A DNA stretch of 64,000 bases, from NCBI GenBank assembly GCA_027488835.1, contig JAIYAW010000004.1, forward strand, positions 1 to 64,000, in the 5' to 3' direction. This DNA is from Bacteroidota bacterium (lineage in GTDB: Bacteria > Bacteroidota > Bacteroidia > NS11-12g > UBA955). Below are positions 17,808 to 23,532 of the stretch, in pieces. Both the position numbers and the translations under genes were made by a program. The notes under the pieces are model-generated. The model saw nothing but the letters and a program-made list of their open reading frames with translations, did not search any database and was not told the DNA's origin. How positions within the stretch are numbered: the first letter of the stretch is position 1; the number at the start of each line of letters is the position of its first letter.

Positions 17808-18458
17808 TTACTCCTTCCACAAAAATGGAAAAAGGATATAGGCCAAGGCAACAATCATAATATTGATCATCATCAATACCCCTATGTCTTCGTACAATAA
17901 ACTTGTATCCAAGCCGTCCATGGCTTTTTTGCAGGCTTTCACCAATACAAGTAACAAGGGCACAATGATGGGAAAACTCAATACAGGCATGAGCAGGTGG
18001 CTATTATTGGCTTTAGAAGCAATGGCAGAAAGCATGGTGAAAGTAGATGAAAAGCCAACGCTACCAAGCAAAACGCAAATTGAATAAAACAACAAATCTT
18101 GAACTGGATTACCCATAAGAAGCACGTATACAGATAAACAAGCAATGGCTAAGAGGATGTTCAAAACGGCATTGTATATCACTTTAGCGGCTATCATTTG
18201 CTGAGGCTTAACAATATTGTGGTAGTATAGATTCTTGCCTTTGCCTTCTACAATAAAACTTTTTGAGACAGCATTAACGGAGGCAAACAACATGATGAGC
18301 CAAAAAATAGCATTCCATGAAGGGCCATTTAGCATTTTGGCACTCAGGTAAACAATAAACACAGCCGAAAAAACATATATCAAAATGCCATTTAAAGCAT
18401 AGCGCTGTCGCCACTCTATGGTGAGATCCTTTTTAATTAAACTGGCAATAGGCTTCAT
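17808..18458 (-). CDS. ccmB: Heme exporter / cytochrome c maturation protein B
   Basis: 216 residues from ATG at 18458; a GTG two codons upstream is possible. CcmB is the membrane subunit of the CcmAB(C) complex for cytochrome c maturation. Six hydrophobic segments are seen, with the family opening ASLIKKDLTIEWRQRYALNG and the cytoplasmic stretch FIVEGKGKNLYYHNIVKPQQ after TM2. The other ccm genes are not adjacent. Its start codon and upstream region form the left part of a 146-bp sequence repeated at 21056-21201, so a copy of its 5' flank lies beyond the hipBST locus. Confidence 0.9.
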   Translation of the reverse strand: MKPIASLIKKDLTIEWRQRYALNGILIYVFSAVFIVYLSAKMLNGPSWNAIFWLIMLFASVNAVSKSFIVEGKGKNLYYHNIVKPQQMIAAKVIYNAVLNILLAIACLSVYVLLMGNPVQDLLFYSICVLLGSVGFSSTFTMLSAIASKANNSHLLMPVLSFPIIVPLLLVLVKACKKAMDGLDTSLLYEDIGVLMMINIMIVALAYILFPFLWKE

Positions 18459-18602
18459 TTCCACCTCACAAAGATATTAGGAAAATCTAAAATGAAGGAA
18501 ATTGACGAATAAAATATAGTGATAATTGCCTATGGATGGTGTTTAGCGTAGCGTCACCAACCATATAAATAGCGTTTGGAGATAACACCAACCGCAGGCA
18601 AA
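18457..18602. repeat. 146-bp direct repeat, copy A (with cloverleaf-like unit A)
   Basis: Matches 21056-21201 at 140 of 146 positions by eye. The first 78 bp are identical; all six differences fall in the palindromic part. The right half (18526-18601) is a 76-bp unit with outer stem TTGCCT/AGGCAA and two inner hairpins. It starts at the ccmB initiation codon and ends 2 bp from the hipT stop codon. Confidence 0.9.
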
Positions 18603-18604
18603 TG

Positions 18605-19549
18605 TTACTTGTTTATTCTTTCAAATCTTTCTGTTACTATTTGTTTGTATTGATTTTTAAAATCATCTGTCATGAAACTATTTTCTATTTGTTCCATCCA
18701 TTTCGATTTTGCTTTTTCCATTTTAATAAAAATATTTTCCTGCTGTTTTACGTCCAGTTTTAAAGTATTCATAGCAGTTACAAAATCTTGTTTTTTTAAT
18801 TTCTTCTTTTTACCATTTAAATACAGAGCCATTTCTTCATCATCTGCTGGATTTACCAATACAGTGTTTACTAAATCATAAGCTGGTGATAATACCATTC
18901 CCAAACCTGGTTGCTCTAATAATGAAAAGTTTTTCAGGTGCATATCTGCATTGCCTGTTAGAAATGAAAATAATACCAATTCAAAGAAATTCACTACATC
19001 CAAACCCGATGTAACAGAATATTTTTGAATAGCTTTTGCAATTTGCTCATAGCTGCCATGGTACTTATCTTCTGTGAGTCGTTCTGTTAATTGGCACATG
19101 TCTTCCATGCCAAGCTTACCTTTTTTAACTCTGTCAATACGTTTTGTTACATAAGCCAGATTGCCAGAAGTTAAACGAACAAGACTATGCGGAGCTGTTT
19201 TTATTTTTGCTATGCTTGCTAAATGCATTGTTACATCTTCAACTTCCGGCAACTGTTGATATGATGGAGTAGGCGGTTTTAAAATGTATCCACCCCAAAG
19301 TCCCACAATGCTAAATCTTTTGCCTTTTCCCTCTTGTTTATTGTTGGTTATGTGAAGCGATAACTTGGCTTGCACACCTGTTACTGCCGTTTGGGCTTGT
19401 ATTACTTCTTTGGCCAATGGTTCCAAATCTACTTCTGAATATGGTAATTCAGGAGGTGTGGGCTGTCCAAATATTTTTTTTGAACAAGTGCCGTGAAAAT
19501 CAAATTCATTTTCGGCCAATGGTAGGTAGCAAAATAAACATCTAGTCAT
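18605..19549 (-). CDS. hipT: HipT-like toxin: HipA-family kinase lacking the N-terminal subdomain
   Basis: 314 residues. HipA/HipT kinases phosphorylate aminoacyl-tRNA synthetases and stop translation. Visible motifs: a Cys motif at the N-terminus (CLFC at 4-7, Cys22), the Gly-rich loop VTGVQAK (56-62), the ATP-binding Lys91 in YILKPP, the catalytic loop NADMHLKN with Asp202 and Asn207, and the metal-binding Asp225 in PAYDL. The small N-terminal subdomain of full-length HipA is missing and is encoded by the preceding gene, as in HipBST systems. The start overlaps the hipS stop by 4 nt (ATGA), so translation is coupled. HipT of E. coli O127 targets TrpRS; the target here is unknown. Confidence 0.85.
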   Translation of the reverse strand: MTRCLFCYLPLAENEFDFHGTCSKKIFGQPTPPELPYSEVDLEPLAKEVIQAQTAVTGVQAKLSLHITNNKQEGKGKRFSIVGLWGGYILKPPTPSYQQLPEVEDVTMHLASIAKIKTAPHSLVRLTSGNLAYVTKRIDRVKKGKLGMEDMCQLTERLTEDKYHGSYEQIAKAIQKYSVTSGLDVVNFFELVLFSFLTGNADMHLKNFSLLEQPGLGMVLSPAYDLVNTVLVNPADDEEMALYLNGKKKKLKKQDFVTAMNTLKLDVKQQENIFIKMEKAKSKWMEQIENSFMTDDFKNQYKQIVTERFERINK

Positions 19550-19878
19550 GGCTTATCCTCCTCTTTTAATTCTTCTACACTCACTGCTCCAATGCAATCT
19601 TTGCAGCAAGCTAGAAGTAAGCCCATACGGTCTCTTGGATTTAATTTCCAATTTTTCACGGCTATATCCAACAACCAACCTTCGGGTATTAAACCATCAA
19701 AAAATGGAAATAATATATTAGATGTATAAATAGCCTCTTGCAAGGGCAGCGTTAAACTTACCGGTTTTGCATCTATTTGGTTTAAATAGGCTTTGGCATA
19801 TTCAAAATGATACCCTTTATCATCTTGCGTTAGCCAGCCTGCCATCTGTGTGTCTATTTTTATAATTGCCTTTCTCAT
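19546..19878 (-). CDS. hipS: HipS-like protein: stand-alone HipA N-terminal subdomain
   Basis: 110 residues matching the HipA N-terminal region (couple_hipA type): AGWLTQDDKGYHFEYAKAYL, the strand-turn PVSLTLPL, FPFFDGLIPEGWLLD and DRMGLLLACCKDCIGAV are the usual conserved blocks. In the HipBST system this small protein, not HipB, is the main antitoxin that holds the kinase inactive. The stop of hipB and the start of hipS overlap in TAATG; the stop of hipS overlaps the start of hipT. Because all three frames overlap, the split is a designed three-gene arrangement rather than a recent frameshift of one hipA gene. Confidence 0.85.
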   Translation of the reverse strand: MRKAIIKIDTQMAGWLTQDDKGYHFEYAKAYLNQIDAKPVSLTLPLQEAIYTSNILFPFFDGLIPEGWLLDIAVKNWKLNPRDRMGLLLACCKDCIGAVSVEELKEEDKP

Positions 19879-20084
19879 TATTCATTTTCTTTTTTAGCAG
19901 GCACGGCCCCAACTTCATAACTAAATAAACGTAGTACCTGATTTACCTTGTCTATGCGTAAACTTTGCTTTCCTTGTTCTAATTCACGAACAAATCGTAA
20001 GCCCACACCTGCCTTTTCAGCTAACTCAGGCTGGGTTAGGTTTACTGATTTTCGCTTCTCTTTTACAAAACTTGCTAATTTCAT
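19878..20084 (-). CDS. hipB: HipB-like antitoxin / repressor (XRE family)
   Basis: 68 residues from ATG at 20084; the frame is open seven codons upstream, but that part overlaps operator 1. A single Cro/cI helix-turn-helix fills the protein: VKEKRKSVNLTQPELAEKAG, then VGLRFVRELEQGKQSL and DKVNQVLRLFSYEVGAV. It resembles the short HipB/YddM-type repressors. As in hipBA operons it should bind the palindromes directly upstream and repress the locus together with the other components. The C-terminus is very short. Confidence 0.85.
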   Translation of the reverse strand: MKLASFVKEKRKSVNLTQPELAEKAGVGLRFVRELEQGKQSLRIDKVNQVLRLFSYEVGAVPAKKENE

Positions 20085-20086
20085 TT

Positions 20087-20225
20087 TATACCCTTTAAGG
20101 TGCAAATATAGTTTATATTCTTTAAATTATACCCATTAGGGTGTAAATTACTTCAAAAATAATTTATTATACCTTTTCGGGTGTAACAACTAAATAAATA
20201 GTCAAAATATACCCTTAAGGGTATA
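20087..20225 (-). promoter_or_regulatory. Four-operator control region of hipBST
   Basis: Four 18-bp sites of the form TATACCC-n4-GGGTGTA: 20087-20104 (TATACCCTTTAAGGTGCA), 20128-20145 (TATACCCATTAGGGTGTA), 20168-20185 (TATACCTTTTCGGGTGTA) and 20208-20225 (TATACCCTTAAGGGTATA, a perfect palindrome). Spacing is 41, 40 and 40 bp, about four helical turns. A -7 box, TATATTTG on the minus strand (20110-20103), lies between sites 1 and 2; site 1 covers the expected transcription start and site 2 the -33 region. This is a strong layout for cooperative repression, analogous to the multiple operators of E. coli hipBA. Confidence 0.85.
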
Positions 20226-20239
20226 TTTTAAAAGTGTGT

Positions 20240-20383
20240 TTAAACTCTATCTTTTGCTATATCGTAATACATCAACAATTGCTCATCTTCCAACAAAATA
20301 TTTTGCGGAATCATATCGCCAAGTGCTACGATGGCTTTGAAATCTTTTTGTTCCCAAATATTTTTGAAACCTTTGCCTATGGT
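20240..20383 (-). pseudogene. C-terminal remnant of an unidentified gene
   Basis: A minus-strand frame without start codon reads about 43 residues from the edge of repeat C to a TAA at 20240-20242. It contains GFKNIWEQKDFKAIVALGDM and ends NILLEDEQLLMYYDIAKDRV. The sequence is clearly protein-like. Upstream the frame meets a stop inside the palindromic repeat. It looks like the 3' end of a gene whose body was lost when the repeat or cassette was joined here. I cannot name the family. Confidence 0.55.
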
Positions 20384-20454
20384 TGGTGTTTAGCGTAGCG
20401 TAGCGTCACCAACCATATAAGTAGCGTTTGGTGATAACACCAACCGCAGGCAAA
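20372..20454. repeat. Cloverleaf-like repeat, copy C
   Basis: Third copy of the palindromic unit found in repeats A and B: TTTGCCT at the left pairs with AGGCAAA at the right. Inside are ATGGTTGGTG/CACCAACCAT and CGTTTGGTG/CACCAACCG (one mismatch). It has one extra TAGCG in the first loop (three units rather than two). The 70-bp leader seen in copies A and B is absent. Confidence 0.85.
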
Positions 20455-20493
20455 TAAAAAAAGGCTCCAGATTTTTATCTGGAGCCTTTTTTT
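20455..20493 (-). terminator. Strong rho-independent terminator
   Basis: AAAAGGCTCCAGAT and ATCTGGAGCCTTTT form a long stem with a short T-rich loop and A/T runs on both sides. It lies 20 bp after the stop of the lipoprotein gene on the minus strand and abuts repeat C. Confidence 0.9.
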
Positions 20494-21055: not shown

Positions 21056-21201
21056 ATTTCCACCTCACAAAGATATTAGGAAAATCTAAAATGAAGGAAA
21101 TTGACGAATAAAATATAGTGATAATTGCCTATGGTCGGTGTTTAGCGTAGCGTCACCAAACATATAAGTAGCGTTTGGTGATAACACCAATCGCAGGCAA
21201 A
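21056..21201. repeat. 146-bp direct repeat, copy B (with cloverleaf-like unit B)
   Basis: Same orientation and length as copy A (18457-18602). The first 78 bp, which in copy A include the start and 5' flank of ccmB, are identical, but no ccmB gene follows here. The palindromic unit spans 21125-21200. Its right end shares bases with the attC-like site that follows. Confidence 0.9.
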
Positions 21202-21250: not shown

Positions 21251-22402
21251 TCATTCTTTTATAAGTTTAATGGTTCTGTCGTCTATTTTGAGAAAGTATA
21301 AACCACGAGTCAACTCTGAAAAATCTCTCTGTTCAATGTATTTACCCGTCCACATGACTTGACCAAAATAATTAATTAGTGTGAAAAATTCTTTTCCAGT
21401 CGTGTTAGTTAGGTTGATTTTGTCTGAAAATGGATTCGGAAATGCTTTGATGGCTTCTTTAGTTTCGTTTAAGTCGTTAATTCCAGTTGTCAAGCAGCCT
21501 AATGTATAATTCTGAAAAAAAAACCAAAGTAAATCAGTCGCACTAATTTGAGTTGAAACAGGATTGTTGTTCGGATTTCCGCCTGGCCAACTATGACTAC
21601 CGTCAGTGGTGGCATAATGATGAAATTCTACATTACATGAACAGTTATGTATTTTAATGAAGTCGTAATTCGTTCCATTGCCATTTATAATTGTGTCTCT
21701 TGATTGGCAATTGTTTTTCTGTGACCATATATTCATTGTACTGTCCTGTGATGGGAAAAATATAGTTGTCAAAGGAGGAGCACCACCCATACCACCATTG
21801 TAAAATACAATCGGGTCAACTTTTGAATGAAAATTAATTATAGGTATTTTGTTTGTTGGATTACAAGGAAAATACATTTGAGAGCATGCATTGGGTGCAA
21901 TAGCCGCAAAACGATGGCTTAATTCGCAAGCTAATCTATAGCAGAGCATACCGCCATTTGAAGAACCTGTTGCGTAAACTCGGGTCGTGTCAATTGGATA
22001 ATTTGAGAACAAAGTATCTAATAAATTATCGATGAAGCCAACATCATCAACATTTTGATTCATTGCAGGTGGACAACAATTACCGGCATTCCAAGACCGA
22101 TTTTGATTGAAAACTCTTCCTTCGGGATAGACAACAATAAAACCAGAACTGTCAGCCTTTTCAGAAAGTTTACTCTGATATGCAAACACTGTCCAACCCT
22201 GTGAGCTTGTCGCTGCCTGTTGGCCTCCGTGAAAACCTAGTATTAATGGATAATTTGTGTTTGAACTATATCCAAGTGGTAAATGTATATTATATTTTCT
22301 CCAAACGTTGCCAACGTTTATGCTGTCGTAAATATCTGTTTGTCCGAAGCAACAAGTCAGCATAATAAAGTTCAAACAGATTAGTAACAATATTCTTTTC
22401 AT
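21251..22402 (-). CDS. Secreted PHB-depolymerase-like esterase with T9SS type A sorting domain
   Basis: 383 residues. A signal peptide (LLICLNFIMLTCCFG) is followed by an alpha/beta hydrolase of the LpqC / PHB depolymerase type: PLILGFHGGQ (oxyanion region), VVYPEG, SWNAGNCC, VDDVGFIDNLLD, the nucleophile elbow ATGSSNGGM, and a likely catalytic His in GSHSWPGG. Feruloyl and acetylxylan esterases share this fold, so the substrate may be a plant polysaccharide ester. The last 70 residues (AFPNPFSDKINL to RTIKLIKE) form a type A T9SS sorting domain. Its ATG overlaps the stop of the upstream paralogue (TAATG). Confidence 0.85.
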   Translation of the reverse strand: MKRILLLICLNFIMLTCCFGQTDIYDSINVGNVWRKYNIHLPLGYSSNTNYPLILGFHGGQQAATSSQGWTVFAYQSKLSEKADSSGFIVVYPEGRVFNQNRSWNAGNCCPPAMNQNVDDVGFIDNLLDTLFSNYPIDTTRVYATGSSNGGMLCYRLACELSHRFAAIAPNACSQMYFPCNPTNKIPIINFHSKVDPIVFYNGGMGGAPPLTTIFFPSQDSTMNIWSQKNNCQSRDTIINGNGTNYDFIKIHNCSCNVEFHHYATTDGSHSWPGGNPNNNPVSTQISATDLLWFFFQNYTLGCLTTGINDLNETKEAIKAFPNPFSDKINLTNTTGKEFFTLINYFGQVMWTGKYIEQRDFSELTRGLYFLKIDDRTIKLIKE

Positions 22403-23532
22403 TATTTAACTAGTTTAATTGTCCTATTGTCAATTTTCAGGAAATAAAGACCATTTGTTAAGTATGAAAAATTCTGCTGTTCAATATTTTTACCTGTCCA
22501 AATAACTTGACCAAAATAATTAATAAGCGTGAAATTTTCATTTCCAGTCGTGTTAGTCAGATTGATTTTGTTTGTGAATGGATTTGGGAATGCCTCTATT
22601 TTAATATTTGTTTCGTTAAAATTTTCAATACCAGTAGTTAAACAGCTTGTTGTATAATTCTGAAAAAATTGCCACATTAAATATGTTGCACTAAATTGAT
22701 TGCTAACAGTTACCGTTCCTGAAGAAAGCCCTCCAGACCAAGAATGTTCCCCGTCATAACTTACATATTGTTCTATTATTGCGTTACATGAACAATTTGA
22801 ATATTTAAAATGATCATATTGGTTTGTGTTATGGAATAAGGTGTCTTTCAAAATGCCACAAGAATAATTTGAGCTTATAATATTAAACATGCTGTCTTGC
22901 GGTGGAAAATATGTTCCAGTTGAACCAATTGTTACGCCTCCAAAATATTTTACATTCTGGTCTTGATAAGAATGAAAACTAATTATTGGGATAGATCTTG
23001 CAGGATTCCAAGGATAATACATTAGATTACCTGCAACTGGTGCAATAGCGGCAAAGCGATTTGTTAACTGGTTCGCAAGTCGATAACACAACAATGCACC
23101 ATTTGAAAAACCTGTCGCATATACACGAGTTGTATCTATTGGTCTGTTTGCAAATAAATTACTTAGTAAAGAATTTACAAATCCAACATCGTCTATATTT
23201 TGTGTTGTTGATGGGGCGCAACAACCTCCTGCGTTCCAAGTTCTATTTCCTGCAATTTTTACTCCTTCGGGATATACAACAATAAAACCTGCAGTATCTG
23301 ATTTTTGAGATAAACGAGATTGATATTGAATGGATTGATAACCTAATAGACCACCACCGTGAAATGCTAAAACTAATGGGTAGTTGTTCGAAGTATTATA
23401 TCCTGTTGGAAGATGAGTTAAAAAAGTTCTCCAACGACCTCCAACAAAAATACTGTCATAAATATTTGTTTGAGCAAAAGCCAAATTGGATAGTGAAATC
23501 AACAAAATGAATTGTAAAAATTTTTTTTTCAT
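22402..23532 (-). CDS. Secreted PHB-depolymerase-like esterase, paralogue
   Basis: 376 residues, colinear with and similar to the downstream gene over its whole length: signal peptide (LQFILLISLSNLAFA), LVLAFHGGG, VVYPEG, TWNAGGCC, VDDVGFVNSLL, nucleophile motif ATGFSNGAL, GEHSWSGG, and the same T9SS domain (AFPNPFTNKINLTNTTGNE). The two genes are a tandem duplication that has diverged in the substrate region. They form a one-base-overlapping operon. The two nucleophile motifs differ (SSNGG versus FSNGA), as do the residues before the catalytic His. Confidence 0.85.
   Translation of the reverse strand: MKKKFLQFILLISLSNLAFAQTNIYDSIFVGGRWRTFLTHLPTGYNTSNNYPLVLAFHGGGLLGYQSIQYQSRLSQKSDTAGFIVVYPEGVKIAGNRTWNAGGCCAPSTTQNIDDVGFVNSLLSNLFANRPIDTTRVYATGFSNGALLCYRLANQLTNRFAAIAPVAGNLMYYPWNPARSIPIISFHSYQDQNVKYFGGVTIGSTGTYFPPQDSMFNIISSNYSCGILKDTLFHNTNQYDHFKYSNCSCNAIIEQYVSYDGEHSWSGGLSSGTVTVSNQFSATYLMWQFFQNYTTSCLTTGIENFNETNIKIEAFPNPFTNKINLTNTTGNENFTLINYFGQVIWTGKNIEQQNFSYLTNGLYFLKIDNRTIKLVK

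Follow-up and report, generated by a model that had tools for sequence, protein, structure and literature searches.

A hipBST operon preceded by four evenly spaced palindromes

The stretch analyzed here (the window) comprises 64,000 nucleotides of a Bacteroidota bacterium (contig JAIYAW010000004.1, positions 1 to 64,000) and carries, on its minus strand, a hip operon preceded by four palindromic sites. The first gene, hipB (19878..20084), starts with ATG and encodes a 68-amino-acid (aa) helix-turn-helix (HTH) repressor (TIGR03070). It is followed by hipS (19546..19878), whose 110-aa product corresponds to the HipA N-terminal subdomain (Couple_hipA), and by hipT (18605..19549), which encodes a predicted HipA_C kinase toxin of 314 aa. 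The three genes are adjacent, with overlapping ends, and the Pfam domains HTH_3, Couple_hipA and HipA_C fall on separate proteins. Among solved structures, the best matches are the Legionella HipBST proteins (HipT, 9e-45; HipB, 4e-6; HipS, 4e-17; 8ezr/7vkb, 8ezt). Because the three genes are separate and their best solved relatives are those of Legionella HipBST, the operon is, judging from its sequence, a tripartite, split-HipA HipBST module of the Legionella type and not hipBA. HipBA has a single HipA with both the N-terminal subdomain and the kinase domain, here encoded by two separate genes, and TATCC-n8-GGATA operators, whereas the half-site here is TATACCC; evenly spaced operators before hipB, which characterize HipBST, are present. 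The initial annotation rightly placed the sites before hipB; a reading of the module as hipBA is corrected by the gene layout.

The four 18-bp sites lie at 20087..20104 (site 1), 20128..20145 (site 2), 20168..20185 (site 3) and 20208..20225 (site 4), with start-to-start intervals of 41, 40 and 40 bp, as first proposed. On the minus strand, which is the hipB strand, they read, from site 4 to site 1, TATACCCTTAAGGGTATA, TACACCCGAAAAGGTATA, TACACCCTAATGGGTATA and TGCACCTTAAAGGGTATA, sites 1 to 3 being assigned to that strand. The outermost, site 4, is a perfect palindrome, in line with the initial annotation, and site 1 ends 2 nt before the hipB start codon, a place that it also occupies in relatives.

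A -7 box of the Bacteroidota type, TATATTTG, is found at 20103..20110 on the minus strand. It had been described as lying between sites 1 and 2, which is mostly correct, except that it shares its final two bases with the beginning of site 1. Given the usual layout of Bacteroidota promoters, hipB transcription is expected to start inside site 1, near 20097-20100, which would place this site within the transcribed leader and could suggest that the palindromes are RNA hairpins acting as terminators or attenuators. However, sites 2 to 4 are upstream of the promoter, and neither the phasing of the sites nor their covariation with an HTH helix, both presented below, would have a meaning for RNA. We therefore regard an RNA function as hardly credible. 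A search for a known RNA element yielded no Rfam family match, and this candidate was rejected.

The sites are confined to the operon and accompany it in relatives

Searching the window with up to 3 mismatches returned 9 matches against 2.46 expected, 7 of which correspond to the four sites, on one or both strands. In the 2.49-Mb genome, only sites 2, 3 and 4 were recovered at 0-1 mismatch and site 1 was added at 2 mismatches, a level at which matches elsewhere in the genome showed no excess over a reversed-pattern control. Near-perfect copies are thus confined to the operon, and the 18-mer is not scattered over the genome, the outcome against which the initial annotation had proposed to check its reading. 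A wider regulon was likewise rejected, since additional sites in this genome and in 14 genomes of the genus occur only at the control level. One exception among the latter consists of two operator-like sites spaced by 41 bp, close to the end of a contig (locus L220; genome G012, contig C201, 2832-2890). No hipB was found within the 530 bases beside this pair, which is probably a truncated hip locus.

Scanning 84,980 genomes with a HipT profile identified 80 loci, nearly all with the hipB-hipS-hipT order and nearly all with an array before hipB. With sites defined by a match of at least 11/14 to TATACCC-n4-GGGTATA, 159 of the 160 successive spacings measured 40-43 bp. Shuffled regions gave none, ruling out a chance origin of the array. 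The locus set was then enlarged with further loci from the order, class and phylum, and operators were found before hipB in 134 related loci of two classes, defined by residue 30 of HipB: 104 with Arg (Bacteroidota/Chlorobiota) and 30 with Thr. The array accompanies hipBST throughout the phylum, and also where the module resides on a Parabacteroides plasmid. By contrast with the regular spacing, the distance between the last site found and the start codon varies from 0 to 85 bp among the 80 loci. The sequences that separate sites 2 and 3 are as dissimilar as shuffled sequence (pairwise identity 0.39/0.36, against 0.36/0.34 after shuffling), yet they are 22-23 bp long, from which we conclude, on sequence comparison, that it is the length of the spacer and not its sequence that is under selection.

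Operator sequence follows residue 30 of HipB

A locus of the same genus (L020) bears another palindrome and keeps the 40-bp spacing; its HipB reads GVALTVV where that of the window reads GVGLRFV. This relationship extends to the whole set. Arg30 HipBs (104 loci) are preceded by TATACCC-n4-GGGTATA, spaced by 40-42 bp in nearly all cases, and Thr30 HipBs (GVALT[V/I], 30 loci) by TATATGY-n4-RCATATA, spaced by 39-41 bp, with zero cross-matches between the two consensus sequences at 12/14 or better in either class. HipB variants with Asn (L125, L127), His (L170, L201, L203) or Ser (L158) are associated with other AT-rich palindromes, 40-42 bp apart. In two His-class loci (L201 and L203, GIHF), the palindromes are 17 bp long (TATAC-n7-GTATA), one base under the usual frame, at a spacing of 40 bp.

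In the predicted HipB structure (mean predicted local distance difference test score, pLDDT, 85), Arg30 occupies the second position of the third, recognition helix (H29-37), and in the alignment it stands opposite Gln29 of the 434 repressor. Gln29 touches bases in the 434 repressor-DNA complex. In each half-site, it is most likely the GGG that Arg30 recognizes. Mapping residue 30 onto the HipT tree requires four changes, and the covariation should therefore be counted as about four independent events, not 130.

The class of HipB also bears on the position of the promoter. In the Arg class, of the 61 strict TAnnTTTG matches near site 1, 57 begin 6 bp ahead of it; 43 of the 104 loci have no strict match. 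In the Thr class, the -7 box is mostly 15-16 bp before site 1, about one turn away from the Arg-class position, with an unchanged array spacing. This difference indicates that the array can be shifted relative to the promoter by about one turn while keeping its own spacing.

Because the operator sequence covaries with the recognition helix of HipB, the sites are tied to this protein. A regulator encoded elsewhere, for which hipBST would be one of several targets, might be invoked instead, as HipB is designated as the binder here from sequence. Yet copies elsewhere in the genome do not exceed the control, the array moves with hipBST across the phylum and onto the plasmid, and the operators shift with HipB residue 30, making another regulator very improbable.

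Spacings step by whole helical turns

While the 40-43 bp spacing dominated, it was compatible with a rigid absolute distance between sites, which appeared to be the favored explanation over helical phase. The exceptions ruled it out: they fall at 50-52, 60-62 and 70-73 bp, in one-turn steps. Spacings of 50-51 bp are found in L192, L196 and L214, and of 52 bp in L195. HipBs with the Legionella-type helix GVGKT are associated with TTACYGY-n4-RCRGTAA sites located 70-73 bp apart (61 in L213), in agreement with the 71 bp, centre to centre, of the Legionella operators (PMC10653801). Over 179 loci, no spacing lies between the groups, and two outliers, one of 37 and one of 83 bp, lie outside them. 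The fit over these loci gives spacing = 10.23n - 0.14, with n = 4-7 (bootstrap slope 10.06-10.39, intercept -0.90 to 0.72), the groups at n = 5 and 6 containing a small number of weak sites (L037, L090). A consensus-free search returned the same values, with 145 of 153 Arg-class loci at 39-42 bp and 4 at 51-52, 32 of 34 Thr-class loci at 39-40 and 15 of 16 Legionella-type loci at 70-73, whereas shuffled sequences were flat. Separately, in a further Hip family (HipB helix GVGLRT or GVSLRS; L129, L132, L285, L288), pairs of AGTGC-n8-GCACT sites are 60-61 bp, or six turns, apart.

Since the spacings and their exceptions step by whole turns, the data support the location of the sites on one face of the DNA, as initially suggested, provided that complexed DNA makes one turn in about 10.2 bp. 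HipB operators that act independently, with an even spacing that is inherited and does no more than prevent the sites from crowding one another or the promoter, would also produce regular arrays, and the loci do share a common ancestry. In addition, Legionella HipB shifts its operator DNA stepwise, and the authors raise intermediate occupancy, unlike the cooperative E. coli HipB (PMC10653801). However, the spacers are fully randomized while their length is held within 1-2 bp, the distance from site 1 to the ATG is free, the spacing exceptions step by whole turns, and the spacing outlasts changes in operator sequence. Independent action is thus unlikely, albeit conceivable.

Comparison with known Hip systems

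Operator arrays of HipB are already known in E. coli and Legionella. As the module is HipBST, the first comparison is with HipBST_Lp of Legionella pneumophila, which has the same hipB-hipS-hipT order and several evenly spaced 18-nt operators before hipB. There, three operators are separated by 53-bp gaps, with O1 on the promoter, and HipB(Lp) binds each of them in gel shifts (PMC10653801). The two systems differ in the number and spacing of the operators (three at 71 bp, against four at 40-41 bp here), in the distance of the first operator from the start codon (24 nt for O1, against 2 nt for site 1) and in the HipB helix (GVGKT, against GVGLRF). E. coli K-12 HipBA also has four 18-bp palindromic operators before hipB, starting with TAT and ending with ATA, which are bound cooperatively with a 70-degree bend (PMC3376134, PMC3920265), but its half-site is that of TATCC-n8-GGATA, its HipA is unsplit and its operators, measured from the genome, are unevenly spaced (28/39/28). 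The likeness to the E. coli operators put forward in the initial annotation therefore holds for the 18-bp frame and not for the spacing. The HipBST of E. coli O127:H6 is likewise tripartite. HipB alone is reported to repress hipBST there, for which it must be abundant, whereas for hipBT or hipBST a low, leaky level of expression is enough to repress (PMC10627512); no operator array is described in the text consulted. This module falls in another HipBST subclade (PMC10653801) and is more distant from that of the window (HipT match to 7ab3, E 6e-16).

In the Gly-rich loop of HipT, VTGVQ is preceded by Ala in the window, where L018 has Ser and L020 has Thr. This residue may be the counterpart of the Ser that is autophosphorylated in HipA.

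A proposed phased operator ladder for HipB

Taken together, the restriction of the sites to the operon within the genome, their conservation in 134 loci and their covariation with the recognition helix support their initial assignment as HipB operators. Extending the E. coli and Legionella findings to this locus, we propose that the four palindromes very probably constitute a phased operator ladder of the hipBST operon, which would be filled by HipB, alone or as HipBST, and through which the operon would repress itself. A HipB dimer, alone or with HipS and HipT, would bind each 18-bp site. With sites four helical turns apart, the bound complexes would be aligned along a single side of the helix and, as the phasing suggests, might touch their neighbors or introduce in-phase bends. 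A complex on site 1 would cover the -7 box and the start point, switching the operon off, and sites 2 to 4 would reinforce this repression, probably through cooperativity. A fall in HipB or an altered HipB:HipT ratio would then release the promoter.

Several observations weigh against this model. At the 10.5 bp per turn of free B-DNA, 40.5 bp correspond to 3.86 turns, an offset of about -50 degrees per step, and alignment on one face therefore needs about 10.2 bp per turn in the complex. E. coli HipBA has spacings that do not fit whole multiples of 10.2, few loci make up the 5- and 6-turn groups, and the intermediate occupancy raised for Legionella departs from cooperative filling. The covariation between operator and helix rests on about four independent changes, the Thr class being a single clade, and the AT-rich operators of the Asn, His and Ser variants are weakly defined.

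A broader, tentative possibility is that the spacing between rungs in Hip-family repressor ladders is quantized to 4, 5, 6 or 7 whole turns at about 10.2 bp, a value near the repeat of protein-wrapped DNA. Promoter DNA might then be wrapped or coiled by arrays of HipB complexes, and the kind of HipB complex would determine the number of turns.

A search of the openly licensed literature turned up no account of Bacteroidota HipBST operators, the 40-bp ladder, the recognition rule or the whole-turn spacing. These results supply operators for a large HipBST group in Bacteroidota and Chlorobiota, together with a simple recognition rule that relates HipB residue 30 to the inner bases of the half-site. 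They also make cooperation within HipB arrays cleanly testable, as deeply diverged loci retain whole-turn spacing despite random sequence between the sites.

Repeats and genes flanking hipBST

A palindromic repeat of about 77 nt with a branched-hairpin fold (z -3.0 to -5.7) is present at 18526-18602, 20373-20456 and 21125-21201. These three copies are the only ones in the genome, and the repeat was not found in 13 relatives. Each copy comes after the 3' end of a gene, and two of them flank hipBST. An integron origin was considered and rejected, as no integron integrase exceeded the cut-off and the attC core was not seen. A 146-bp direct repeat, 96% identical between its two copies (18457-18602 and 21056-21201), bounds hipBST and a putative lipoprotein gene, which suggests acquisition or duplication of this 2.6-kb stretch as one unit. 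Beyond it are two adjacent paralogous genes for secreted esterase-like proteins (21251-22402 and 22402-23532), which share DNA blocks of 75-81% identity.
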